From contig NZ_CANLGX010000005.1 of NCBI RefSeq assembly GCF_947490415.1, forward strand, positions 62,001 through 126,000: 64,000 nucleotides of DNA. Direction: 5' to 3'. Position numbers and translations under genes: made by a program. Below the pieces are notes generated by a model. That model searched no databases and had not been told where the DNA came from. It was given only the letters and a program-made list of their open reading frames with translations. This DNA is from an uncultured Eudoraea sp. Lineage in GTDB: Bacteria > Bacteroidota > Bacteroidia > Flavobacteriales > Flavobacteriaceae. This document shows, one piece after another, positions 37,536 to 63,315 of this stretch (within the stretch, counting starts at the first letter, position 1; each line of letters starts with the position of its first letter).

Positions 37536-38633
37536 CTATTTCTTTAAGACCTCGGCATTAATTATTTTCTCCTGATGATTTATTGATTCCTGGTGTATAG
37601 CTTTAAACATGCGAAGAACAAATTCTTCACTCAATCCTTTAGATTCCCCCTCAAGGATCATTTTACCCAATATTGCATTCCAACGGTTCGTTTGAAGAAC
37701 GGCCACATTGCGCTGCCTTTTTAATTCACCAATCCCATCAGAAACTTTCATTCTTTTGCTAAGAATGTCAATTAGCTGATTATCAATAATATCAATCTGG
37801 GTGCGGAGATTATTAATTTTTTGGTTGTATTCTGCTTCCTCATCAGTTTCCTTTCTAATTTTTAGGTCTTCCATGATTTGCACCAATCTTTTAGGAGTTA
37901 CTTGTTGCGCAGCATCGCTCCAGGCATTATCAGGATCATGATGTGTTTCAATCATTAATCCATCAAAATTCAGATCTAGAGCAGTTTGTGAAATATCAAA
38001 GATCAATTCCCTATTGCCACTAATATGTGAAGGATCATTAATCAAAGGCAGGTCTGGAAATTTAGTTTGCAATTCAATAGCCATTTGCCATTCCGGGATA
38101 TTCCGATATTTGGTTTTCTCATAGGTAGAAAAACCCCGATGTATTACCCCTAACTTTTTAATATTGGCCTTTGATAATCGCTCCACGGCACCCATCCATA
38201 AGGATAGGTCTGGGTTTACCGGGTTTTTAACAAGAATAATTTTATCTGTACCTTCCAAAGCGTCTGCAATTTCCTGAACTATAAATGGGCTAACTGTAGA
38301 ACGTGCGCCTATCCAAAGCAAATCCACATCATGTTCCAATGCAAGATCAACATGAGCCCTGTTGGCCACTTCTGTAGCTGTCTTAAGACCGGTTTCTTCT
38401 TTTACTTTTTGTAACCATTTGAGACCAATAGCTCCAACTCCTTCAAAGTTTCCGGGCCTGGTTCTCGGTTTCCAAATACCAGCGCGATAATAGTTTACAT
38501 CTGTATCTTTAAGCTCATGGGCTATTCCCAATACCTGATCTTCAGTTTCTGCGCTGCATGGTCCTGCAATTACCAGAGGATGTGATAAATTCATATTATC
38601 TAACCATGATCTTAAATTTTTTGAATTCTCCAT
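37536..38633 (-). CDS. Bifunctional DAHP synthase / chorismate mutase
   Basis: A 365-residue fusion. Residues 1-260 form a type I-beta (KDO8PS-like) DAHP synthase, which condenses phosphoenolpyruvate and erythrose 4-phosphate: AGPCSAE at 23-29, YRAGIWKPRTRPGNFEG, and DPSHISGNRELI. Residues 270-365 form an AroQ-type chorismate mutase helix bundle (NNLRTQIDIIDNQLIDILSKRMKVSDGIG). It joins the first step of the shikimate pathway to the branch toward Phe and Tyr, and the mutase domain can provide feedback sensing. It ends the operon pheA-aminotransferase-tyrA-this gene, 15 bp after tyrA. Confidence 0.96.
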   Translation of the reverse strand: MENSKNLRSWLDNMNLSHPLVIAGPCSAETEDQVLGIAHELKDTDVNYYRAGIWKPRTRPGNFEGVGAIGLKWLQKVKEETGLKTATEVANRAHVDLALEHDVDLLWIGARSTVSPFIVQEIADALEGTDKIILVKNPVNPDLSLWMGAVERLSKANIKKLGVIHRGFSTYEKTKYRNIPEWQMAIELQTKFPDLPLINDPSHISGNRELIFDISQTALDLNFDGLMIETHHDPDNAWSDAAQQVTPKRLVQIMEDLKIRKETDEEAEYNQKINNLRTQIDIIDNQLIDILSKRMKVSDGIGELKRQRNVAVLQTNRWNAILGKMILEGESKGLSEEFVLRMFKAIHQESINHQEKIINAEVLKK

Positions 38634-38648
38634 TATTATCTGTCTTTA

Positions 38649-39500
38649 TTATTTTGGTATTCCTTTTAATATTGCTTTTATCTTATTTGTATTGTCCATT
38701 TCTTTATAGATGCCTTGAAAATTATTATCAATTAGTTTTTGTTTAAAGGTTGCCAGATTCTGAATATATTCATCCAATGTCTCTATGACATTTTCTTTAT
38801 TTTGTTCGAAAATAGGGGTCCACATGGCTGGTGAACTTTTTGCTAATCTAACCGTACTTTCAAAACCACTGCCCGCCATGTCAAAAATATCCCGCTCATT
38901 TTTCTCCTTTTCAATTACCGTTTTACCAAGCATAAACGAACTTATATGTGACAGGTGGGAGACATAGGCAATATGCTTGTCATGTGCTTCTGGATTCATG
39001 TATCTTATTCGCATGCCCAGGCTGCTAAAAATACTCAAAGCCCTTTCCTGGAGTTTAAAAGCTGTTTTTTCTACTTCACAAATTATATTTGTTTTACCTG
39101 CAAACAGTTCTGAAACAGCAGCAGAGGGACCGGAAAATTCGGTTCCTGAAATAGGGTGACAAGCCAGAAAATTTCGTCTTCTCGGATGATCTGCTACTAT
39201 CCTGCAAATTTCAGACTTTGTAGACCCTGCATCTATGACCAATGAATCGTCACCAATGACATCCAATATTTTAGGAAGTTCCTCTACAATAGCATCCACA
39301 GGGATACTAACTATAACCACATCTGCCTCAGATAATTCTTTTGAGCTCGCTATACCGTCTATAATTTGCAGCCTAACAGCTTCTTCAAGATGGGCTGCAC
39401 TTGCATCCATCCCATAGATTGACACCTCCGGATACTTGCATCTCAGATCCCTGGCCATTGAACCCCCAATTAATCCGATACCTACTATTATTACATTCAT
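38649..39500 (-). CDS. tyrA: Prephenate dehydrogenase TyrA
   Basis: A 283-residue NAD(P)-dependent enzyme that oxidises prephenate to 4-hydroxyphenylpyruvate. The Rossmann motif VGIGLIGGSMA is at residues 5-15. DAGSTKSEIC and CHPISGTEFSGPSAA, holding the catalytic His, follow. There is no fused mutase domain, since the mutase is on the next gene. A 187-bp gap separates it from the aminotransferase upstream; I found no leader peptide or hairpin in that gap. Confidence 0.95.
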   Translation of the reverse strand: MNVIIVGIGLIGGSMARDLRCKYPEVSIYGMDASAAHLEEAVRLQIIDGIASSKELSEADVVIVSIPVDAIVEELPKILDVIGDDSLVIDAGSTKSEICRIVADHPRRRNFLACHPISGTEFSGPSAAVSELFAGKTNIICEVEKTAFKLQERALSIFSSLGMRIRYMNPEAHDKHIAYVSHLSHISSFMLGKTVIEKEKNERDIFDMAGSGFESTVRLAKSSPAMWTPIFEQNKENVIETLDEYIQNLATFKQKLIDNNFQGIYKEMDNTNKIKAILKGIPK

Positions 39501-39687: not shown

Positions 39688-40833
39688 TTAAAACCTTTCG
39701 ATAGCCTCTTTTATCTTTGATTTTCCCACACAAAGTGAAAATCTGATATAACCCTCTCCATTGCTTCCAAAAATAGTCCCAGGTGCAATAAAAATGTTTT
39801 TATCATGTAATATTCGATCTATAAAATCTTCTGAATTCGGTGATCCATCCGGCAGTTTAGCCCACACAAACATCCCTACAGCATTAGTGTCATAGGTGCA
39901 TTGCAATTTATCTGCCAATTGAAACATCAACTTTCTGCGAGCTTTATATGTGGTATCTAATTGATCAAACCATTCCTTTCCACTTTTTAATGCCTCAATA
40001 GCACCTTTCTGAATACCATAGAACATTCCGGAATCCATATTGCTTTTAACTTTTAAAATCGCATTTATATTCTCTTTATTTCCCAAAACCATTCCAACTC
40101 TCCAACCTGCCATATTGAAAGTTTTGCTCAAAGAATTGAGTTCTAAAGCTGTATCCTTGGCTCCCTTTATACTTAAAATGCTCAATGGACTCTTACTTAA
40201 AACAAAACTGTAAGGGTTGTCATTTACCAATAAGATGTTATGCTCTTTCGCAAAGGCAACCAGTTTTTCCAATTGAGAAGAATTTGCCATAGCCCCAGTG
40301 GGCATATGCGGATAACTTACCCACATTAACTTTACACCAGACAAATCTTCCTGCATTAATCTTTCTAAATCTGGGAACCATCCGTTATCAGCAACAAGGT
40401 CATATTGCCTTGGAACTGCTCCGACCAATTTTGTAACTGACGTATAGGTGGGGTAACCCGGATTGGGAATTAATACCTCATCACCCTGATTTAAAAAAGC
40501 CATACTAATGTGCATTATCCCTTCTTTGGAACCCATAAGGGGTAATATTTCTTTAGAAGGATCTGCATCTACATTAAATTTTTCCTTGTAAAACTGCGCT
40601 ATTGTTTCTCTTAGTTCAGGAAGCCCCTGATAACTCTGGTACTGATGGGCGCCCGCATGTCTTACAGATTCCTGGAAAGAAGTAATAACAGCTTCAGATG
40701 GTGGAAGATCCGGACTACCTATACCAATATTTATTATTGGTTTTCCCGCAGCTGCCATTTCTCTGACTTCACGTAATTTTTTTGAGAAATAATACTCCTC
40801 TATGGTCTGTAAACGATCAGCGGTTTGTATCAT
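39688..40833 (-). CDS. Class I/II aminotransferase of the aromatic operon
   Basis: A 381-residue PLP-dependent fold-type I aminotransferase. The PLP lysine is Lys237 in SLSKTFNMAGWRVG, with NPGYPTY and VNDNPYSFV as flanking cofactor contacts. Given its place between pheA and tyrA, it most likely aminates phenylpyruvate and 4-hydroxyphenylpyruvate, or prephenate. The fold is also close to LL-diaminopimelate and aspartate aminotransferases, so specificity is inferred from context. Its start overlaps the pheA stop by four bases. Confidence 0.9.
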   Translation of the reverse strand: MIQTADRLQTIEEYYFSKKLREVREMAAAGKPIINIGIGSPDLPPSEAVITSFQESVRHAGAHQYQSYQGLPELRETIAQFYKEKFNVDADPSKEILPLMGSKEGIMHISMAFLNQGDEVLIPNPGYPTYTSVTKLVGAVPRQYDLVADNGWFPDLERLMQEDLSGVKLMWVSYPHMPTGAMANSSQLEKLVAFAKEHNILLVNDNPYSFVLSKSPLSILSIKGAKDTALELNSLSKTFNMAGWRVGMVLGNKENINAILKVKSNMDSGMFYGIQKGAIEALKSGKEWFDQLDTTYKARRKLMFQLADKLQCTYDTNAVGMFVWAKLPDGSPNSEDFIDRILHDKNIFIAPGTIFGSNGEGYIRFSLCVGKSKIKEAIERF

Positions 40834-41657
40834 AAACGAGCATTTTTATATTCACCTAAAACCTTGAAATCTTCGGACATGATATCCATTAATGATTTCG
40901 CTTTGGCAAAATGATTGTAATCATCAAAAGTTATATCCACAAAAAATGCATATTTCCATGGTGTTTCAATAATTGGTAACGACTGTATTTTGGTCAAATT
41001 CAAATTGCAATCACTCATAACATTTAGAACCGCAGCTAAACTTCCTCTCTTATGATCCGTAATAAAACGTATGGAGGCTTTGTTGATCTCTTCTTTTGGC
41101 ATTTCCTTATTCTGTGTCTTTACAATGATAAATCTTGTGGAATTATTCTTTATGGTCTGTATTTCGGGTTCAATAATTTTTAAATCGTACAGATCTGCAG
41201 CCACTGCCGGAGCAATGGCAGCTATCCCTTTCAACTGGTTTTCTTGAATTTGTTTTGCTGTTTCGGCAGTATCAACATCTTCAACCATTTTTATATGGGG
41301 TTGAGACTTTAAATACTCTCTACATTGTAATAGCGCCATTGGATGCGATCGAACTTCCTTAATGTCTGACAATTGCTGCCCATCTAAAACCATCAAATTG
41401 TGATGGATATTCAGATAATATTCCCCAATTATGTGCAAATTATTATGATACACAAGGGCATAATTAGGTATTATTGATCCTGCAATTGAATTTTCAATAG
41501 CCATTACACCCTTATCCGCTTGCCTATTAAGCAATTGGTCTACTAACGTATGAAATGACATGCATTCCACTAAATCTATATCATCCCCAAAATAATTCAA
41601 AGCCACCTGATGGTGATTAGAACCTTTAATTCCCTGTATGGCTATTTTTAAACCCAT
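40830..41657 (-). CDS. pheA: Prephenate dehydratase with ACT domain PheA
   Basis: A 275-residue enzyme that converts prephenate to phenylpyruvate. The periplasmic-binding-like catalytic domain (1-185) has AIENSIAGSI and the STRFIIV motif with the catalytic Thr. A C-terminal ACT domain (195-275: DHKRGSLAAVLNVMSDCNLNLTKIQSLPI in part) should bind Phe for feedback inhibition. It is the first structural gene of the aromatic operon and follows a leader-peptide attenuator whose terminator ends 18 nt before the ATG. Confidence 0.96.
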   Translation of the reverse strand: MGLKIAIQGIKGSNHHQVALNYFGDDIDLVECMSFHTLVDQLLNRQADKGVMAIENSIAGSIIPNYALVYHNNLHIIGEYYLNIHHNLMVLDGQQLSDIKEVRSHPMALLQCREYLKSQPHIKMVEDVDTAETAKQIQENQLKGIAAIAPAVAADLYDLKIIEPEIQTIKNNSTRFIIVKTQNKEMPKEEINKASIRFITDHKRGSLAAVLNVMSDCNLNLTKIQSLPIIETPWKYAFFVDITFDDYNHFAKAKSLMDIMSEDFKVLGEYKNARL

Positions 41658-41674: not shown

Positions 41675-41743
41675 AAAAAAAAATCCCGTATTTCACGGGA
41701 CCTTATCTGATATATTGTTCACAATATTCTAAAACAGTCCCGT
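41675..41743 (-). promoter_or_regulatory. Transcription attenuator of the aromatic operon
   Basis: Three mutually exclusive segments lie on the minus strand. Segment A, ACGGGAC (41743-41737), is inside leader-peptide codons 20-22. Segment B, GTCCCGT, is at 41701-41695. Segment C, ACGGGA, is at 41689-41684 and is followed by nine U (41683-41675). B:C makes a 6-bp terminator stem with a 5-nt loop and U tract. A:B makes a 7-bp antiterminator flanked by G-U pairs. A ribosome stalled at the Phe codons (14-16) leaves A free to pair with B and transcription goes on. A ribosome reaching the stop codon covers A, and the terminator forms. This is the textbook pheL/trpL logic. Confidence 0.88.
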
Positions 41744-41800
41744 ACTTCTTTTAAAAAAGAAATAAAAATAGAAACCATTCCAAAAATAATTACGAGTCAT
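41729..41800 (-). CDS. Phe/Tyr-rich attenuator leader peptide, 23 residues
   Basis: A small gene from ATG at 41800 to TAG at 41729, with a weak AGGAAA ribosome site just upstream. The peptide has seven Phe, three Tyr and one Trp in 23 residues. Its central part is GFYFYFFFKR (codons 9-18), including three Phe codons in a row at 14-16. Such a composition is a hallmark of attenuator leader peptides. Its last codons encode the antiterminator half-site, and the terminator is 28 nt past its stop, directly before pheA. I recall no description of this leader in Flavobacteriia. Confidence 0.88.
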   Translation of the reverse strand: MTRNYFWNGFYFYFFFKRSTGLF

Positions 41801-42056
41801 TTTCCTATAAATCTGTGGCTAAGGTAAATATTAAATTTAAAAATCGATGTTTATAAATATATTTTTTTGAATATTCACAATATCTCCGATTTCTTTGCGG
41901 ATAATTACTTGAATGTAAATTTTTTTTGAGAATTTATCATTACTTTAAGCCAGGTCATACTTCAAATTCCAGAATTTTTTAATGGATTGATTAAAATTAC
42001 ATAAATGAAATTCCAGCTTAAACCTGCAATGTTTATTTTTACCAAAAATTTAGCAC
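41801..42056. other. AT-rich divergent intergenic region, leader peptide to gldA
   Basis: This 256-bp AT-rich stretch must hold the promoter of the aromatic operon (minus) and that of gldA (plus). I find no exact TAnnTTTG box on either strand. The closest minus-strand candidate is TAAATTTA at 41832-41839, and the closest plus-strand candidate is TATTTTTA near 42033. No gene or hairpin is visible. Confidence 0.5.
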
Positions 42057-50043: not shown

Positions 50044-50047
50044 TTTG

Positions 50048-50167
50048 TGTTATCTAGCCTTAATTGCCGTAAACAAGCAACATAGTGGTAGAATGTAGCA
50101 CCTTCTTTATAGTTAAAGGGTTGCTAAGGTTTCAACGGGTCTAGTCCCTCCACCTTTCTTGATAACA
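50048..50167 (-). ncRNA. SAM-I (S-box) riboswitch upstream of metH operon
   Basis: Read on the minus strand the region carries the S-box core: P1 5' strand TGTTATC (50167-50161), then GGTGGAGGGACTAGACCC, TGAAACC, GCAACC and AAGGTGCTA, and P1 3' strand GATAACA (50054-50048). These are the conserved SAM-binding and kink-turn blocks of SAM-I. Binding of SAM should favour the terminator just downstream and switch off the homocysteine methyltransferase, metH and metF genes. Confidence 0.93.
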
Positions 50168-50192
50168 ATGTCAATGTTGTAATGAACTTGTG

Positions 50193-56715: not shown

Positions 56716-59700
56716 TCATATTTTTTCTGCTATACGTAAAATATCCCCAAAAACCCCTCGAGCAGTTACGGCTGCACCAGCTCCTGCACCTTGAATTACC
56801 AATGGATGTTCGCCATATGACTCCGTATAAATCTCAATAATGGAGTCCGAGCCTTTAACCTGTCCCAAGGCACTTTCCTTAGGCACTGAAACCAGTTTTA
56901 CTTCAAGTTCTCCTTTCTCTTTCTGTAAATCGCCATACAAATCGCCAACATAACGGAGTACATGATTCGGCTCCTGGCTGTCCTTTATTTTACTAAAATA
57001 ATCATCAAGGACTTCAAGTTCATTCAAGAATTCCTGCACATTTCCATTTCGGAGAGATACCGGTATAAGATTTTGGATTGAAATATCATCAAATTCATTT
57101 TCGAGTTCCAGTTCGCGAGCTAATATCAGCAATTTTCTGCCCACATCGTTACCAGATAAATCCTCTCTTGGATCGGGTTCTGTATATCCATTTGAAATAG
57201 CGGTTTTTAAAACCGCAGAAAAAGAAATGTCTTTTTCGGAAAAAGTATTAAAAATATAACTCAAAGACCCAGAAAAAACACCTTTAATCCGTGTAATATT
57301 TTCGCCGGATAAATGCAAAAGCTTTATAGTATCTATTAATGGTAAGCCGGCACCTACATTAGTTTCATATAGGTATTGTTTCTGTTTTTTTGCCAACTCA
57401 TCCCTAATCAATCTGTAGTAGTCAAATCCCAGGGTATTAGCTATCTTATTTGAGGACACCAGATCAAAGCCATTTTCAATAAAATCAAAATAATTGGCCA
57501 CAAAATCCTGACTTGCAGTATTATCTATGGCAATTAGGTTTTCAAGATGATGTATTTTGGCATACTCAAAAATATGTTCAACAGTATAAGGAATGCCCTT
57601 TTCATTAATATCTTCCTCCCATTTTTTAGAAATACCGTCTTTGTTTAAGAGTAATTTTTTCGAATTAGCTAAGGCAAATACATTAAGATTAATGCCTTTT
57701 CTTTCCTCAATCCCCTTCCTCGAAGCTAAAATCTGATCTACCAAAGTGCCCCCTACATTCCCATGTCCAAATATAGCCAGATTCACTTTTTTGCTAATTC
57801 CAAAAATTTGTCCATGCATTACGTTCAGCGCTTTGTGAAGGTCTGTTTTTTTAACCACCAAGCTTACATTCTTACCTGAAATCGTATTATTAAACAATAA
57901 AGGAACTATTTGATTCTTGATTAGGGCATTATAAGGTTTATGAAAAGTGCTAAGGTCCTGCCCCACTATAGAGATGACTGATACTTCGCTTACAATAGTT
58001 ATTGTATTAATATCACGTGATTGAAAATCGCTCTCAAACTCCATTTCCAAAGCCCTTTTTGCCAAATGTGCCTTTTCCGAATTAACTACCAATCCAATTC
58101 CTCTCTCAGAAGAACCCTGGGAGATGATACTTACGCTTATATTATTTTGGCTTAGGGTCCTGAAAATACGGGCATCAATTCCCACTTTCCCTAACAATCC
58201 TCTCCCCTCGAGGTTAATTAAAGCTTCATTTTCAATAACAGATAATGATTTTATTCCTTCTTTACTAGATTTAGCACTGATAAGTGTACCTTCATTTTCA
58301 TTATTAAAAGTATTGAGTACCCTAAGTGGGATATTCTTTTCGATTAGGGGAATAATAGTCTTTGCGTGTAAAATGGTTGCCCCAAAATTTGCAAGTTCAT
58401 TCGCCTCACTATATGACAATTGATCTATTCTTTGTGCTTCAGAAACAAATTCCGGGTTTGCTGTGAAAATACCATCTACATGAGTATAATTTTCCAATTC
58501 TTCCGCGTCCAAAAAGTTTGCAATAAGAGAAGCCGTATAATTACTGCCATTACGCCCAAGAGTTGTTGTTTCATCTGTCTCAGTAGAAGCTATAAAACCT
58601 GTTATCAATGGTACCTCATCTGGTTTTAAATTCGAAAATTCATGAATTACATTTTCCCTGGATACATCTTCCAGCAATTTGGCATCTCCGTAAGAATCAT
58701 CTGTTTTTATGAGTCGGCGACTATCAAGTAATTTTGCTTTGATTCCTTCTCCAATAAGCAATTTTGTGATCAACTTACCCGATATTAGCTCACCATAAGC
58801 CAAAACCTGGTCTTTTATTTTAGCACTATAATCTCCAAGCAAAGTAACTCCTTCAAATAATTTCACCAATTCCTGAAATTCCTCTGAAAGATTTATATTT
58901 TTAAAAGTATGTTTCTGATATCTTTCAAAATTTTCAAAATCTTCCCGATAATCTAATCCCTTTGCGGCTTTATTTAATATAGCTTCCAATTGATCTGTGG
59001 CCTTTTCACGAGCTGATAAAACCACTGCAATATTTTCTCCATTTTTGACTTTATTGGTTATAATTTCCAATACCCTTCCCAAGCCTTCTCCATTGGAAAG
59101 TGACTTCCCGCCAAACTTCAAAATTTTTATTCTCGCAGATTTTCCATTAGCATCAAAAACTCCTTTGAGCAATTGCTGCATTTGTTCAAATTCAATCAAA
59201 AATGCATCATGACCATGCAACGATTGAATTTCACCATAAGTTACATTACTTTTAGCCTGAGCCAACTGTTTAAAGGTATCCTTATTCTCATTTGCTGTAA
59301 AAAAAAGATCAGAATCTACCCCTATAATATGAATATTGGTTTTACTGTTTTGAAGATTGATAAATGCATCTTCTCCTTCTCTTGTGATATCAATCGTTTT
59401 TAATAATTGATTGGCTAATTTGTAAGCTGAAAGTTGAAACCTTTCATTCAATTTTTTTCCATGATGCGTTAGCCAGCTTTCCACATTAAAAACCTGTAAT
59501 TCCTCATTCGTGCTTCTTTGAAACCTTGCTTTAAAAGACTGGGGAGTTCTGTAACACAACATAGCATGCATCCTGGCATCATGGACAGGCTGCCTGGAAT
59601 TTACAAGAAATTGTTCCTGAATCTGACAATTCGCAATGAGCCAATCTGTTGACTTCCAATCAGCAGCCACAGGGATCAAATGTTCCGTTAGCAATGGATT

Positions 59701-60120
59701 TAGCGCTGCCATTTCCCAGGCAATTCCGCCTCCTAATGAACCACCAATAAGCGCATAAACACGATCTATATTGAGCTCTTTCAATCCTTGAAGAAATATT
59801 CTGGCAATATCACCAGCCACAAAATCTTTATAATTGTCAACAACAAATCCATCATAACCGTTACCGGGGATGTTGAAGGCCAGCACGGTATATTTGTTTG
59901 TGTCAATACATTTACCATCTCCAATTAATGAAGCCCACCACCCATCTTGCCCTGCAACATTTGAATTTCCCGTAAGGGCATGATTTACTACTACAATGGG
60001 TGCAGAGTGCAACTTTTTGCCAAACAGTTGATAAGACAACTCCATATCTTGCACAACGCCGCTATACGTTTTATACTGAGGGATTTCTATTTTTTTAAGT
60101 GTTGTATTCAGGTCTTTCAT
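56716..60120 (-). CDS. thrA: Triple fusion: homoserine acyltransferase-like, aspartokinase, homoserine dehydrogenase
   Basis: A 1134-residue protein in three parts. Residues 1-325 form an alpha/beta hydrolase of the homoserine O-acetyltransferase (MetX) family, with nucleophile Ser128 in GGSLGG, acid candidate Asp271 and His304 in HGHDAFL, so the triad looks intact. Residues 332-770 form an aspartokinase (KILKFGGKSL at 332-341) with ACT regulatory repeats from about 626. Residues 779-1134 form homoserine dehydrogenase (NAD motif GHGNVGG at 785-791). It covers the first and third steps from aspartate to homoserine plus the methionine-branch acylation on one chain. Databases usually name only the kinase/dehydrogenase part. 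Confidence 0.95.
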   Translation of the reverse strand: MKDLNTTLKKIEIPQYKTYSGVVQDMELSYQLFGKKLHSAPIVVVNHALTGNSNVAGQDGWWASLIGDGKCIDTNKYTVLAFNIPGNGYDGFVVDNYKDFVAGDIARIFLQGLKELNIDRVYALIGGSLGGGIAWEMAALNPLLTEHLIPVAADWKSTDWLIANCQIQEQFLVNSRQPVHDARMHAMLCYRTPQSFKARFQRSTNEELQVFNVESWLTHHGKKLNERFQLSAYKLANQLLKTIDITREGEDAFINLQNSKTNIHIIGVDSDLFFTANENKDTFKQLAQAKSNVTYGEIQSLHGHDAFLIEFEQMQQLLKGVFDANGKSARIKILKFGGKSLSNGEGLGRVLEIITNKVKNGENIAVVLSAREKATDQLEAILNKAAKGLDYREDFENFERYQKHTFKNINLSEEFQELVKLFEGVTLLGDYSAKIKDQVLAYGELISGKLITKLLIGEGIKAKLLDSRRLIKTDDSYGDAKLLEDVSRENVIHEFSNLKPDEVPLITGFIASTETDETTTLGRNGSNYTASLIANFLDAEELENYTHVDGIFTANPEFVSEAQRIDQLSYSEANELANFGATILHAKTIIPLIEKNIPLRVLNTFNNENEGTLISAKSSKEGIKSLSVIENEALINLEGRGLLGKVGIDARIFRTLSQNNISVSIISQGSSERGIGLVVNSEKAHLAKRALEMEFESDFQSRDINTITIVSEVSVISIVGQDLSTFHKPYNALIKNQIVPLLFNNTISGKNVSLVVKKTDLHKALNVMHGQIFGISKKVNLAIFGHGNVGGTLVDQILASRKGIEERKGINLNVFALANSKKLLLNKDGISKKWEEDINEKGIPYTVEHIFEYAKIHHLENLIAIDNTASQDFVANYFDFIENGFDLVSSNKIANTLGFDYYRLIRDELAKKQKQYLYETNVGAGLPLIDTIKLLHLSGENITRIKGVFSGSLSYIFNTFSEKDISFSAVLKTAISNGYTEPDPREDLSGNDVGRKLLILARELELENEFDDISIQNLIPVSLRNGNVQEFLNELEVLDDYFSKIKDSQEPNHVLRYVGDLYGDLQKEKGELEVKLVSVPKESALGQVKGSDSIIEIYTESYGEHPLVIQGAGAGAAVTARGVFGDILRIAEKI

Positions 60121-60207: not shown

Positions 60208-61500
60208 CTATGCCAGAACAGATTTATCAATTGTTGCAAAAGCCTGTTTAAGGTCGGCTTTAAGATCATCCAGATTTTCCAATCCTACAGATAAACGTAT
60301 TAAATCCTTAGTGACTCCCGTTGCTTCCTGTGCAGCATCATCTAATTGTTGATGGGTAGTACTAGCCGGGTGAATTATTAAAGATTTAGTATCTCCTATA
60401 TTAGCCAATAAGGAAAAAATTTGGGTTCCGTCAGCTATTTTCTTTGCAGAATCAAATCCCCCTTTAACACCAAATGTTATTAATCCACTTTTCCCTTTTG
60501 GCAAATATGCCTCTGCCTCAGCAAAATATTTACTGCTTTTTAGGCCTGGATAATTTACCCATGTTACTTCATCCCTACCTTCAAGCCATTCGGCCAATTC
60601 AAGGGCATTTTCACTATGTTTTTTCATACGTATCTCAAGAGTTTCAAGCCCTTGGATTATTTGAAAGGCATTAAATGGACTCAGGCAAGCGCCGTGATCC
60701 CTTAAGCCTTCTATCCGCACCTTGGCAATAAATGCAGCGGGCCCTAAGGCATCGTGATATACTAAACCGTGATATCCTGCCGAAGGTTCTGTAAATTCAG
60801 GAAATTTCCCGTTTGCCCAATCAAAGGTTCCGGCATCTATTACGGCACCACCAAGTGCTGTGCCATTGCCATTAATATATTTGGTAAGAGAATGAATTAC
60901 AATATTCGCTCCATGCTCAATCGGATTTAACAAGGCAGGTGTTGCCACTGTGTTATCAACAATAAAAGGAATTTTGGCAGCCTTTGCTTCTGCTGAAATA
61001 GCTTTTAAGTCGAGAACATCCAGCTTTGGGTTCCCCAGTGACTCTACAAAAATTGCTCGCGTATTCTCCTTTACGGCTTTCCCAAAATTAGAGGGATCTG
61101 AAGGGTCAACAAATGTTGTGGTAATCCCAAACCGGGGAAGGGTAACACTCAGCAAATTATAAGTCCCCCCATATAGGCTATTGGAAGCCACAATATGATC
61201 TCCTGACTTCAACAGAACTAAAAGAGCCGTATTAATAGCTCCTGTTCCCGATGAAGTAACCACTGAAGCAATACCTCCTTCCAGTGCAGCAAGCCTTTGT
61301 TCTAAAATATCATTCGTAGGATTATTAATCCGACTGTAAATATTACCAAACTCCGCTAAAGAAAATAAATTAGCCGCGTGTTCAGAATCGTTAAAAACAT
61401 AGGCAGTACTTTGATAAATTGGCACTGCCCGGGTACCGCTCGTTAAAGTTGTGTCATGTCCTGCATGCAATGCATTGGTAGAAAATTTGTGTTCACTCAT
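60208..61500 (-). CDS. metY: O-acetylhomoserine sulfhydrylase MetY
   Basis: A 430-residue PLP enzyme that makes homocysteine from O-acetylhomoserine and sulfide. The PLP lysine is in IHSLTKYINGNGTALGG near residue 206, with VVTSSGTGAINTALLVLLKSGDHI (in part) binding the phosphate. The length of about 430 and the GYHGLVYHDALGPAAFIAKVR insert are typical of MetY and distinguish it from shorter cystathionine gamma-synthases. It is the first gene behind a SAM-I riboswitch and is followed 87 bp later by the MetX-AK-HSDH fusion, which would supply its substrate. Confidence 0.95.
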   Translation of the reverse strand: MSEHKFSTNALHAGHDTTLTSGTRAVPIYQSTAYVFNDSEHAANLFSLAEFGNIYSRINNPTNDILEQRLAALEGGIASVVTSSGTGAINTALLVLLKSGDHIVASNSLYGGTYNLLSVTLPRFGITTTFVDPSDPSNFGKAVKENTRAIFVESLGNPKLDVLDLKAISAEAKAAKIPFIVDNTVATPALLNPIEHGANIVIHSLTKYINGNGTALGGAVIDAGTFDWANGKFPEFTEPSAGYHGLVYHDALGPAAFIAKVRIEGLRDHGACLSPFNAFQIIQGLETLEIRMKKHSENALELAEWLEGRDEVTWVNYPGLKSSKYFAEAEAYLPKGKSGLITFGVKGGFDSAKKIADGTQIFSLLANIGDTKSLIIHPASTTHQQLDDAAQEATGVTKDLIRLSVGLENLDDLKADLKQAFATIDKSVLA

Positions 61501-61676: not shown

Positions 61677-61683
61677 CTTTTTT

Positions 61684-61791
61684 GTTATCTGTCACAATTT
61701 TTATGTGATAGAATTTAGCACCTTCTTCGCTTTGGACACAAAGGGTTGCTAAGGCTTCAAAGGGTCTATTCCCTCCACCTTTCTTGATAAC
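61684..61791 (-). ncRNA. SAM-I (S-box) riboswitch upstream of metY
   Basis: On the minus strand: P1 5' GTTATC (61791-61786), AAGAAAGGTGGAGGGAATAG, ACCC, TTTGAAGCC, TTAGCAACCC, GAAGGTGCTAAATTC, a P4 hairpin TCACA...TGTGA, and P1 3' GATAAC (61689-61684). These are the conserved S-box blocks in order. It should repress metY and probably the downstream MetX-AK-HSDH fusion and metZ when SAM is abundant. It shares long identical stretches with the metH riboswitch. Confidence 0.95.
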
Positions 61792-61821
61792 TTTTCAACA
61801 AATGATTGAACTTAGTAAAAG

Positions 61822-61869: not shown

Positions 61870-63126
61870 TTACAAATTAAAGGCCAATTTTACCTTATCT
61901 ACCATATTTAATTTTTCCCATGTGAATAACTCTACCGTTTTTTCAACCCTACCGTTATATGGGGATTCAAATACTTTTGACACCATTCTTGGTTCCTTCC
62001 CAAAGTGTCCATAGGCGGCCGTTTCCAGGTAAATGGGATTTCTTAATTTAAGTCGTTCTTCTATTTCAAAAGGCCTCATTTTAAATAGTTCTGCAACTTT
62101 CTGGGCTATTTCACCATCGCTCAAAGCCACTTTTGAGGTTCCGTAAGTATCTACAAAAATCGAAGTCGGCTCGGCCAATCCAATAGCATAACTTACCTGT
62201 ACCAGTATTTCATCGGCAACACCTGCTGCAACCAAATTTTTTGCTGCATGTCTCGCGGCATAAGCGGCGCTGCGGTCTACTTTACTAGGATCCTTTCCGC
62301 TGAAAGCACCTCCCCCGTGAGCTCCTTTACCTCCATAAGTATCAACAATAATTTTTCTTCCGGTCAAACCGGTATCCCCATGAGGCCCACCAATCACAAA
62401 TTTACCGGTAGGATTGATATGGTAGGTAATCTTATCGTTAAACATGCTCTGGGTGTTCGGCGGTAACTTTGCTTTAACTCTTGGTATTAAAACAGTAACA
62501 AGGTCTTGTTTTATTTTTGATAGCATTATCTCATCATCCTTATCAAACTCATCGTGCTGGGTTGATATTACGATTGTATCAATTCTAACAGGGATATTAT
62601 CATCCGAATACTCAATAGTAACCTGCGCTTTTGAATCAGGTCTTAAATAAGTTAGCTCTTTATGTTCTTTTCTTAACAGGGATAATTCCTTAAGTATTCG
62701 ATGTGAAATATCTAATGCCATTGGCATATAATTTTCACTTTCGTTAGTCGCATAACCAAACATCATACCCTGGTCACCGGCACCCTGTTCTTCTTTTTTT
62801 TCGCGATCTACTCCCTGATTTATATCCTTAGACTGTTCGTGTATCAATGAGATGACTCCACATGAATCTCCACTGAACTGATATTCCCCATTGGTATATC
62901 CAATTGTATTAATAACATCTCTTGCAATTTGTTGTAAATCTACATAAGTATGACTCTTTACTTCACCAGCTAATATAACCTGACCCGTAGTTACCAAGGT
63001 TTCACAAGCGACCTTACTTTCTGGATCAAAGGCTAAAAAGTTATCTAATAAAGCATCACTAATCTGATCTGCAATCTTATCCGGATGTCCTTCACTTACA
63101 GATTCCGAAGTAAACAAATAGGCCAT
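61870..63126 (-). CDS. metK: S-adenosylmethionine synthetase MetK
   Basis: A 418-residue enzyme that makes SAM from methionine and ATP. SEGHPDKIADQISDALLD is at residues 12-29, GAGDQGMMFGYAT near 117 and GGGAFSGKDPSKVDRSAAY (the P-loop-like and potassium-site region) near 275. The length is standard for Bacteroidetes (slightly above E. coli 384). Upstream lies a SAM-II-type riboswitch, giving product feedback on expression. It is followed by the metY promoter without a visible terminator. Confidence 0.98.
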   Translation of the reverse strand: MAYLFTSESVSEGHPDKIADQISDALLDNFLAFDPESKVACETLVTTGQVILAGEVKSHTYVDLQQIARDVINTIGYTNGEYQFSGDSCGVISLIHEQSKDINQGVDREKKEEQGAGDQGMMFGYATNESENYMPMALDISHRILKELSLLRKEHKELTYLRPDSKAQVTIEYSDDNIPVRIDTIVISTQHDEFDKDDEIMLSKIKQDLVTVLIPRVKAKLPPNTQSMFNDKITYHINPTGKFVIGGPHGDTGLTGRKIIVDTYGGKGAHGGGAFSGKDPSKVDRSAAYAARHAAKNLVAAGVADEILVQVSYAIGLAEPTSIFVDTYGTSKVALSDGEIAQKVAELFKMRPFEIEERLKLRNPIYLETAAYGHFGKEPRMVSKVFESPYNGRVEKTVELFTWEKLNMVDKVKLAFNL

Positions 63127-63204
63127 AAATTTTACTTTTTAAAAATTAAAACTGATTTGACGGATGCTCGAAAAGAAGTTTACAAGACAACTTGATCTGT
63201 AGAA

Positions 63205-63305
63205 ACTGCTTTAGCATTTTTTCTTTTGCAGAACCTGAATAATAATTTTAAACTAAAATTGGGTTCTGTATAAGAGGTTGCAATCAGTCAAATCCCTCCT
63301 CTTAT
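63205..63305 (-). ncRNA. SAM-II-type pseudoknot riboswitch upstream of metK
   Basis: On the minus strand: P1 ATAAGAGG (63305-63298) with CCTCTTAT (63277-63270), loop AGGGATTTGACTGATTGCAA containing the conserved GATTTG and TTGCA blocks, and a downstream strand AATGCTAAAGCAGT (63205-63218) that pairs back (ACTG with CAGT, GCA with TGC) and carries the conserved GCTAAA. This is the SAM-II H-type pseudoknot. Unlike the compact proteobacterial form, a separate hairpin (CAGAACC...GGTTCTG, 63229-63268) is inserted between P1 and the P2 3' strand. SAM-V shares the same core and is an alternative class name. Confidence 0.85.
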
Positions 63306-63315
63306 TTAATGTTAA

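Follow-up and report, generated by a model that had tools for sequence, protein, structure and literature searches.

The window (the whole stretch of DNA analysed, 64,000 nucleotides long) holds on its minus strand a cluster of aromatic amino acid genes, in which pheA is followed by an aminotransferase gene, tyrA and a gene for a DAHP synthase fused to chorismate mutase (Table 1). Directly before pheA lies a leader ORF of 23 codons, 10 of which are aromatic in its translation, and an intrinsic terminator (41704-41675) stands between the two. Both the ORF, with its seven Phe and three Tyr codons, and the identities of the four downstream genes had been proposed in a sequence-only reading; the ORF coordinates confirm the former and Pfam agrees with the latter, the ACT domain match of pheA lying under the Pfam cut-off. 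The aminotransferase gene and tyrA are 187 nt apart, a gap in which a search for terminator-like sites found none, and tyrA and the DAHP synthase gene are 15 nt apart; we assume that the four genes form one transcript. Among named relatives, Eudoraea MAGs and Eudoraea adriatica come nearest, with PheA identities of 91-95%. Of the 62 regions in the window that lie upstream of an ORF of 100 aa or longer, one gave a hit in a scan for a Phe/Tyr-rich ORF followed by a terminator, namely the pheA leader; the same scan gave 0/675 in dinucleotide shuffles of homologous upstream regions and 1/136 in antisense strands.

Table 1. Features of the pheA leader and of the genes that follow it (coordinates in the window)
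Feature	Position	Strand	Remarks
-7-like box, TACCTTAG	41819..41826	minus	resembles Bacteroidetes TAnnTTTG
Leader peptide ORF	41800-41729	minus	23 codons, MTRNYFWNGFYFYFFFKRSTGLF
Region 1, outer 5' arm of possible 1:2	41771..41779	minus	codons 8-10 (Asn-Gly-Phe); can pair with 41741-41733
Inner 5' arm of possible 1:2	41755..41763	minus	codons 13-16; helix 2, 94.4% of cells paired
Inner 3' arm of possible 1:2	41744..41752	minus	codons 17-19; helix 2
Region 2	41733..41743	minus	ACGGGACTGTT, codons 20-23; can pair with region 1 or region 3
Region 3	41694..41704	minus	AAGGTCCCGTG; antiterminator partner or terminator 5' arm
Region 4	41680..41690	minus	TACGGGATTTT; terminator 3' arm
U tract of intrinsic terminator, nine T	41675..41683	minus	read from sequence
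pheA, prephenate dehydratase	40830..41657	minus	Pfam match; ATG at 41657
Class I/II aminotransferase	39688..40833	minus	Pfam match; 4-nt overlap with pheA
tyrA, prephenate dehydrogenase	38649..39500	minus	Pfam match
DAHP synthase fused to chorismate mutase	37536..38633	minus	Pfam match

Three heptamers on the minus strand make up the core of the pairing scheme: ACGGGAC (41743-41737, codons 20-22), GTCCCGT (41701-41695) and ACGGGAT (41689-41683). As had been read from the sequence, ACGGGAC can pair with GTCCCGT, which can alternatively pair with the ACGGGA before nine U; these positions hold, as does the placement of the terminator before pheA, the distance from the last T to the pheA ATG being 17 nt and not the 18 nt first given. 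The two alternative pairings, antiterminator 2:3 and terminator 3:4, both stand, and a possible further hairpin, 1:2, was absent from that scheme. The terminator stem has 11 pairs, the most of the five terminator-like sites between 40000 and 44000, and the 149-nt fold reaches -32.8 kcal/mol (z = -2.34), with 5 of 200 shuffles folding equally well.

The small gene is conserved in close relatives: of 110 Flavobacteriaceae upstream regions, that of the window included, 108 have a leader and a terminator before pheA. These regions comprise 36 full upstream regions (of 38 loci, window genome included), all of them with a leader and 35 with an ATG at codon 1 of 23, and 74 further ones, mostly the next in PheA similarity, of which 72 were strict matches, one (L238) matched under a laxer rule only and one (L241) gave none. 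Two loci where pheA is cut by contig ends (L010, L011) and a duplicate of the window (L127) were left out of the counts. PheA is present in 10/10 genomes of the genus and in 270 of 299 of the family, and the family loci examined, mainly those closest to the query in PheA, represent less than half of these 270. Carriers of the leader include members of Maribacter, Muriicola, Cellulophaga, Lutibacter, Polaribacter and Kordia. Among the named loci (L039-L113), which overlap other genomes of the family sets, the laxer rule flagged 71 of 75, with poor picks in L085 and L094; of those unflagged, the sequences of L084 and L086 end at or before the leader, and L103 and L108 are leaderless.

The peptide is nearly fixed around YFWNGFYFYFFFKR in 36 aligned sequences, and elsewhere in the family and the class it is mainly the richness in Phe and Tyr that persists, as in MTTTVYYTYFNNYFFFSKRNEALYV and MKLFNTYYFGYFYYFSKSRG. 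Among single-nucleotide codon differences at codons 3-16 of 35 aligned ORFs (L017 omitted), the synonymous share was 0.78 versus 0.13 expected, and the shifted frames gave 0.10 (0.24 expected) and 0.31 (0.23 expected) by the same measure, these being pairwise counts that are not independent. Counted as distinct variants, synonymous and non-synonymous differences numbered 12 and 11 in frame, compared with 3 and 26 in one shifted frame and 10 and 22 in the other. To judge from these substitutions, the leader reading frame is under selection. The spacer between the stop codon and region 3 is poorly conserved, the conserved sequence being largely that of the ORF and the terminator.

Beyond the family, a PDT domain was found in 57 of 197 genomes of the class, of which 55 were examined, G000 and G138 having been counted already. 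Strict matches were obtained in 36 of the 55, that is, in 5/5 from the family and in 31/50 from other families; the latter leaders are spread over 13 of 22 families, and the other 19 of the 50 genomes are leaderless before pheA. The leaders of the class share little except their Phe/Tyr richness and the terminator. In 20 chosen leader-bearing clusters the DAHP synthase/chorismate mutase was found in all 20, the aminotransferase in 15 and TyrA in 14 (two of these matches at only 21-22% identity), one contig ending early. When ten leaderless loci of the class were read more widely, two from the same family (L341 and L342) proved to have a Phe/Tyr leader directly before the DAHP synthase/chorismate mutase gene, which lies there upstream of the leaderless pheA; in L342 a further partial match to this gene lies upstream of the leader. 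L346 gave a doubtful pick, and in the seven others no leader was found, L345 with its whole pheA-aminotransferase-tyrA-DAHP synthase cluster included. In other classes of the phylum none of 29 loci had a leader, these being the best 29 of 158 matching genomes and 12 of them coming from one family. Within the class, one family (f13) has a leaderless pheA in 7/7 cases, followed by the aminotransferase in the six that were read downstream.

The pairings proposed from the single sequence (its segments A, B and C) are kept in close relatives: in the alignment of 36 family sequences the pairs are standard in 95.5% of cells for 2:3 and in 96.0% for 3:4. For 3:4, seven cells were changed on both sides, and 0/500 shuffles matched either the paired percentage or the both-side changes. 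Slid versions of 2:3 reached at most 60.5%; its covariation is modest within this alignment (49/500 shuffles equalled the paired percentage) because the core hardly varies. Across clades the core does vary widely (ACGGGAC/GTCCCGT, ACGAGAC/GTCTCGA, AGGATTG/AATCCTG), regions 2, 3 and 4 of other clades forming different sets that yet match one another. Swapping region 3 among unlike leaders weakened the 2:3 duplex: its mean was -11.7 kcal/mol in the family and -13.2 kcal/mol in the class set before the swap, and -8.8 and -8.9 kcal/mol, respectively, after it. The leader's own duplex beat the mean swap in 97/108 family and 34/36 class-set cases, or 131 of 144 leaders in total (143 genomes, since G134 is in both sets), and the median share of single swaps as good as the own duplex was 0.13 and 0.03, respectively. 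A mutually exclusive antiterminator 2:3 is conserved in the relatives.

In masked folding, a ribosome footprint was blocked on the leader and its A site was moved codon by codon. In the leader of the window, for A-site positions from codon 7 to codon 15 (nearly evenly at codon 12, 0.56 versus 0.44), 2:3 outweighs 3:4, which prevails from codon 16. When the same transcript was cut before region 4, P(2:3) was 0.85 at codon 16, 0.25 at codon 17 and 0 from codon 18 onwards, in agreement with the earlier proposal that a ribosome at the stop codon covers the antiterminator. The companion proposal, that a stall at Phe codons 14-16 frees it, held for codons 14-15 and was borderline at codon 16, the effective range being 7-15. 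Over the 144 leaders, region 2 starts at a median of 16 nt past the first nucleotide of the last Phe/Tyr codon in the densest ten-codon window (codon 14 in the leader of the window, though its Phe run continues to 16) and ends at a median of 4 nt before the stop.

With homologous transcripts cut before region 4 and the A site on some codon of the Phe/Tyr tract, P(2:3) exceeded 0.5 in 105/108 family and 32/36 class leaders, so that seven leaders (3/108 and 4/36) failed. With the A site at the stop codon it was below 0.1 in 108/108 and 25/36, and at least 0.1 in 11/36 of the class set, a coverage that is partly built into the homologue results because the search for region 2 was confined to the end of each ORF (its final 33 nt and a further 6 nt). 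The mean P(2:3) of cut transcripts was 0.00 at the stop and 0.62 without a ribosome in the family, and 0.24 and 0.64 in the class set. Tyr and Phe codons at the A site gave equally high P(2:3) values (0.91 and 0.91 in the family, 0.82 and 0.83 in the class set), and Tyr as well as Phe codons lie in the effective window of 144/144 leaders, which argues for joint sensing of Phe and Tyr. At equilibrium, the complete terminator yielded to a ribosome on a Phe/Tyr codon in 27/108 family and 10/36 class leaders; because most homologues favour the completed terminator, the model requires that the order of synthesis play a part. Folding with the full terminator at equilibrium was for that dominance abandoned as the sole switching test, and the cut-transcript test was added. 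Pairing of region 3 with anything upstream, which exceeded its stop-state value by over 0.3 in 56/108 and 12/36, was rejected as too loose a measure of switching. The modelled spacing fits a scheme in which a stall at the control codons would free region 2 and a ribosome at the stop would cover it.

In the classical scheme a hairpin 1:2 enforces termination when the leader is untranslated. The outer helix of the possible 1:2 hairpin joins codons 8-10 with GGGACTGTT (codons 20-23), and in the 36 aligned sequences it is paired in 94.8% of cells, no pair being changed on both sides. Taken together, the 1:2 helices are paired in 94.6% of cells versus at most 63.1% when slid, and both-side changes are no commoner than in shuffles (216/500). 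Asn8 and codon 14 (TTC) are identical in all 36 aligned sequences, and the pairing, if real, would explain the invariance of codons such as these, non-aromatic ones among them. It would also explain a substitution in L009, where Lys-Arg-Ser is replaced by Lys-Glu-Val and the complementary stretch is kept. In the leader of the window without a ribosome, P(1:2) was 0.00 and P(2:3) 0.95 when the transcript was cut before region 4, and with the full terminator at equilibrium 1:2, 2:3 and 3:4 reached 0.45, 0.51 and 0.46; at equilibrium a clear 1:2 hairpin required the A site to be at codons 2-4, where its probability ran from 0.97 to 0.74.

The box TACCTTAG upstream of the ORF is probably the promoter of the leader transcript, given its resemblance to the Bacteroidetes -7 consensus TAnnTTTG (PMC9723704). 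In the 60 nt before the leader ATG, TANNTTWG occurs in 102/108 family and 19/36 class leaders, and in 346 of 2880 shuffles (12%). A Shine-Dalgarno-like sequence is found in 1/144 leaders; upstream of the leader start, A occupies position -3 in 74% of leaders and position -6 in 63%. The same genome has two sister leaders, each followed by a terminator: MRTKNTHHHLYTCTQAR, His-rich (HHH), before hisG (L114, contig C3), and MKFRIVNTWWWNNLRITS, Trp-rich (WWW), before trpE (L115/L311, contig C9). His leaders were found at 29/30 family hisG loci scanned (30 loci, taken from the 50 genomes with HisG among 60 searched) and in 1/300 shuffles, and Trp leaders at 9/9 trpE loci of the genus (9 of 12 TrpE-type matches, three weak partial ones being omitted) and in 0/90 shuffles. 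The ilvD loci of the same genome (L117, L118) showed no leader, and its homoserine dehydrogenase loci (L119, L120) were too short upstream.

A pheA leader attenuator (pheL) is known in enteric bacteria. Like it, the system described here has a leader rich in Phe codons and a terminator with an antiterminator immediately before pheA; unlike it, it combines Phe and Tyr codons, lacks a Shine-Dalgarno-like sequence and an Rfam leader match at gathering score, and heads a cluster with an aminotransferase, tyrA and DAHP synthase/chorismate mutase. Overlapping hairpins ahead of a terminator are the layout of Trp_leader (RF00513) and Thr_leader (RF00506). Our leader shares this layout but scores only 14.1 bits with the former (gathering score 41) and 15.2 bits with the latter (gathering score 55). 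Vitreschak and co-workers reportedly published a comparative study of attenuators in 2004. As far as the text consulted goes, a 2010 paper held leader-peptide systems to be known from Proteobacteria and Actinobacteria only and added Firmicutes (PMC2965389), and a pheA leader-peptide motif is given for Shewanella (PMC2659441). The trpB motif (RF04312) of Firmicutes and Fusobacteria has, like our leader, a hairpin with an antiterminator arm and then a terminator, and scores 19.5 bits here against a gathering score of 59; in the portion available its authors do not rule out classical attenuation (PMC11109978). The uORFC-13-1 motif before aroF in Acholeplasma, from another phylum and with 24 representatives, is comparable in that DAHP synthase is preceded by a terminator and by a probable uORF containing Phe codon(s) (PMC8632094). 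At the pheA leader the trpB motif, leader and riboswitch models of Rfam all score below threshold, and none of its families attains the gathering score, which points to an annotation gap.

Rfam models do match elsewhere on the minus strand of the window. A SAM-II riboswitch (63201-63307) precedes metK (61870-63126), a SAM-I riboswitch (61682-61793) lies between metK and an O-acetylhomoserine sulfhydrylase gene (60208-61500), and a second SAM-I riboswitch is at 50047-50168, so that one SAM-II and two SAM-I riboswitches occur within about 13.3 kb. The same strand encodes, at 56716-60120, a 1134-aa fusion of a MetX-like part (about 20-325, under NCBIfam cut-offs) and a bifunctional aspartate kinase/homoserine dehydrogenase (about 332-1132, above them).

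The sequence-only reading knew of no description of such control in Flavobacteriia, a view that does not hold. A 2021 study of F. psychrophilum reports strong clues that leader-peptide attenuation acts ahead of amino acid operons, and names conserved 5' elements without Rfam hits before pheA and hisG, in other Flavobacteriaceae genera too (PMC9723704). This pheA element is very probably the same as the leader described here; section 19 of that paper presents it without a leader sequence, a pairing scheme, Tyr codons or a distribution beyond the family. For B. thetaiotaomicron, sORFs reminiscent of leader peptides are mentioned in general terms in the part of the source at hand (PMC7366714). 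The accessible portions of PMC8305728, PMC2965389 and PMC2659441 hold no description of a Bacteroidia pheA leader, and in the literature on the class, to the extent of the text available, we found no further description beyond PMC9723704. The system is thus of a known kind, already glimpsed in Flavobacteriaceae and widespread in a class where it has hardly been described; what is added here is its anatomy, the dual Phe/Tyr coding, the class-wide distribution and the two cases with a leader before another gene of the cluster.

From the ORF, regions 1-4, their conservation and their spacing we infer, with high confidence, that the pheA-aminotransferase-tyrA-DAHP synthase/chorismate mutase cluster is controlled in vivo by ribosome-mediated transcription attenuation that senses charged tRNA-Phe and tRNA-Tyr. 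Under a shortage of Phe or Tyr, the leading ribosome would stall at about codons 7-15 and cover region 1, leaving region 2 free; 2:3 could then form before region 4 is made, and RNA polymerase would continue into pheA. With both in good supply, the ribosome would go on to the stop codon and cover region 2, so that 3:4 would form and transcription would end before pheA.

Four other explanations were weighed. The foremost of them, itself very unlikely, adds to attenuation a trans action of the released leader RNA or peptide, a role like that reported for peTrpL, a leader peptide of Sinorhizobium (PMC7298713). If it starts near 41815, as we suppose, an attenuated transcript would be a short RNA of about 140 nt, and the 36 aligned sequences show strong conservation of the peptide; yet nothing that we found requires such a role, codons and pairing accounting for the conservation. 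That the hairpin is a plain terminator or polarity element, trimming transcription constantly with an incidental Phe/Tyr ORF, agrees with the dominance of the finished terminator at equilibrium in most homologues whatever the ribosome does. We nevertheless hold it highly improbable in view of the selection on the ORF frame, the recurrence of Phe/Tyr codons in otherwise unlike leaders of 13 other families, the better fit of each ORF's region 2 to its own region 3 than to others, and the His and Trp leaders of the same build before hisG and trpE.

Nascent peptides such as TnaC stall the ribosome in response to a ligand. Were the conserved leader peptide itself an arrest peptide of this sort, its near fixation around YFWNGFYFYFFFKR would be accounted for, but elsewhere mainly Phe/Tyr richness persists, and several of the fixed non-aromatic codons are those able to pair in 1:2 and 2:3; we hold this even less probable. 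Least credible of all is a riboswitch or protein-binding leader that senses phenylalanine directly, the ORF being secondary: a terminator/antiterminator pair is also compatible with an aptamer-controlled switch, but the leader brings no Rfam family to its gathering score, and conservation is concentrated in the ORF and the terminator and is poor in the spacer between the stop codon and region 3.

A broader view seems to us somewhat better than an even bet, namely that leader-peptide attenuation is an old and general control of Phe/Tyr, His and Trp synthesis in the class Bacteroidia, in which one Phe-or-Tyr leader serves as an OR gate for both the common and the terminal aromatic steps, is able to precede whichever gene opens the cluster and starts without a Shine-Dalgarno sequence. 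We know of no test of transcription-translation coupling in Bacteroidia. Attenuation by leaders without a Shine-Dalgarno sequence, if true, would require that the leading ribosome follow close behind RNA polymerase, and these leaders would be natural reporters for the closeness of ribosome and RNA polymerase in Bacteroidia.
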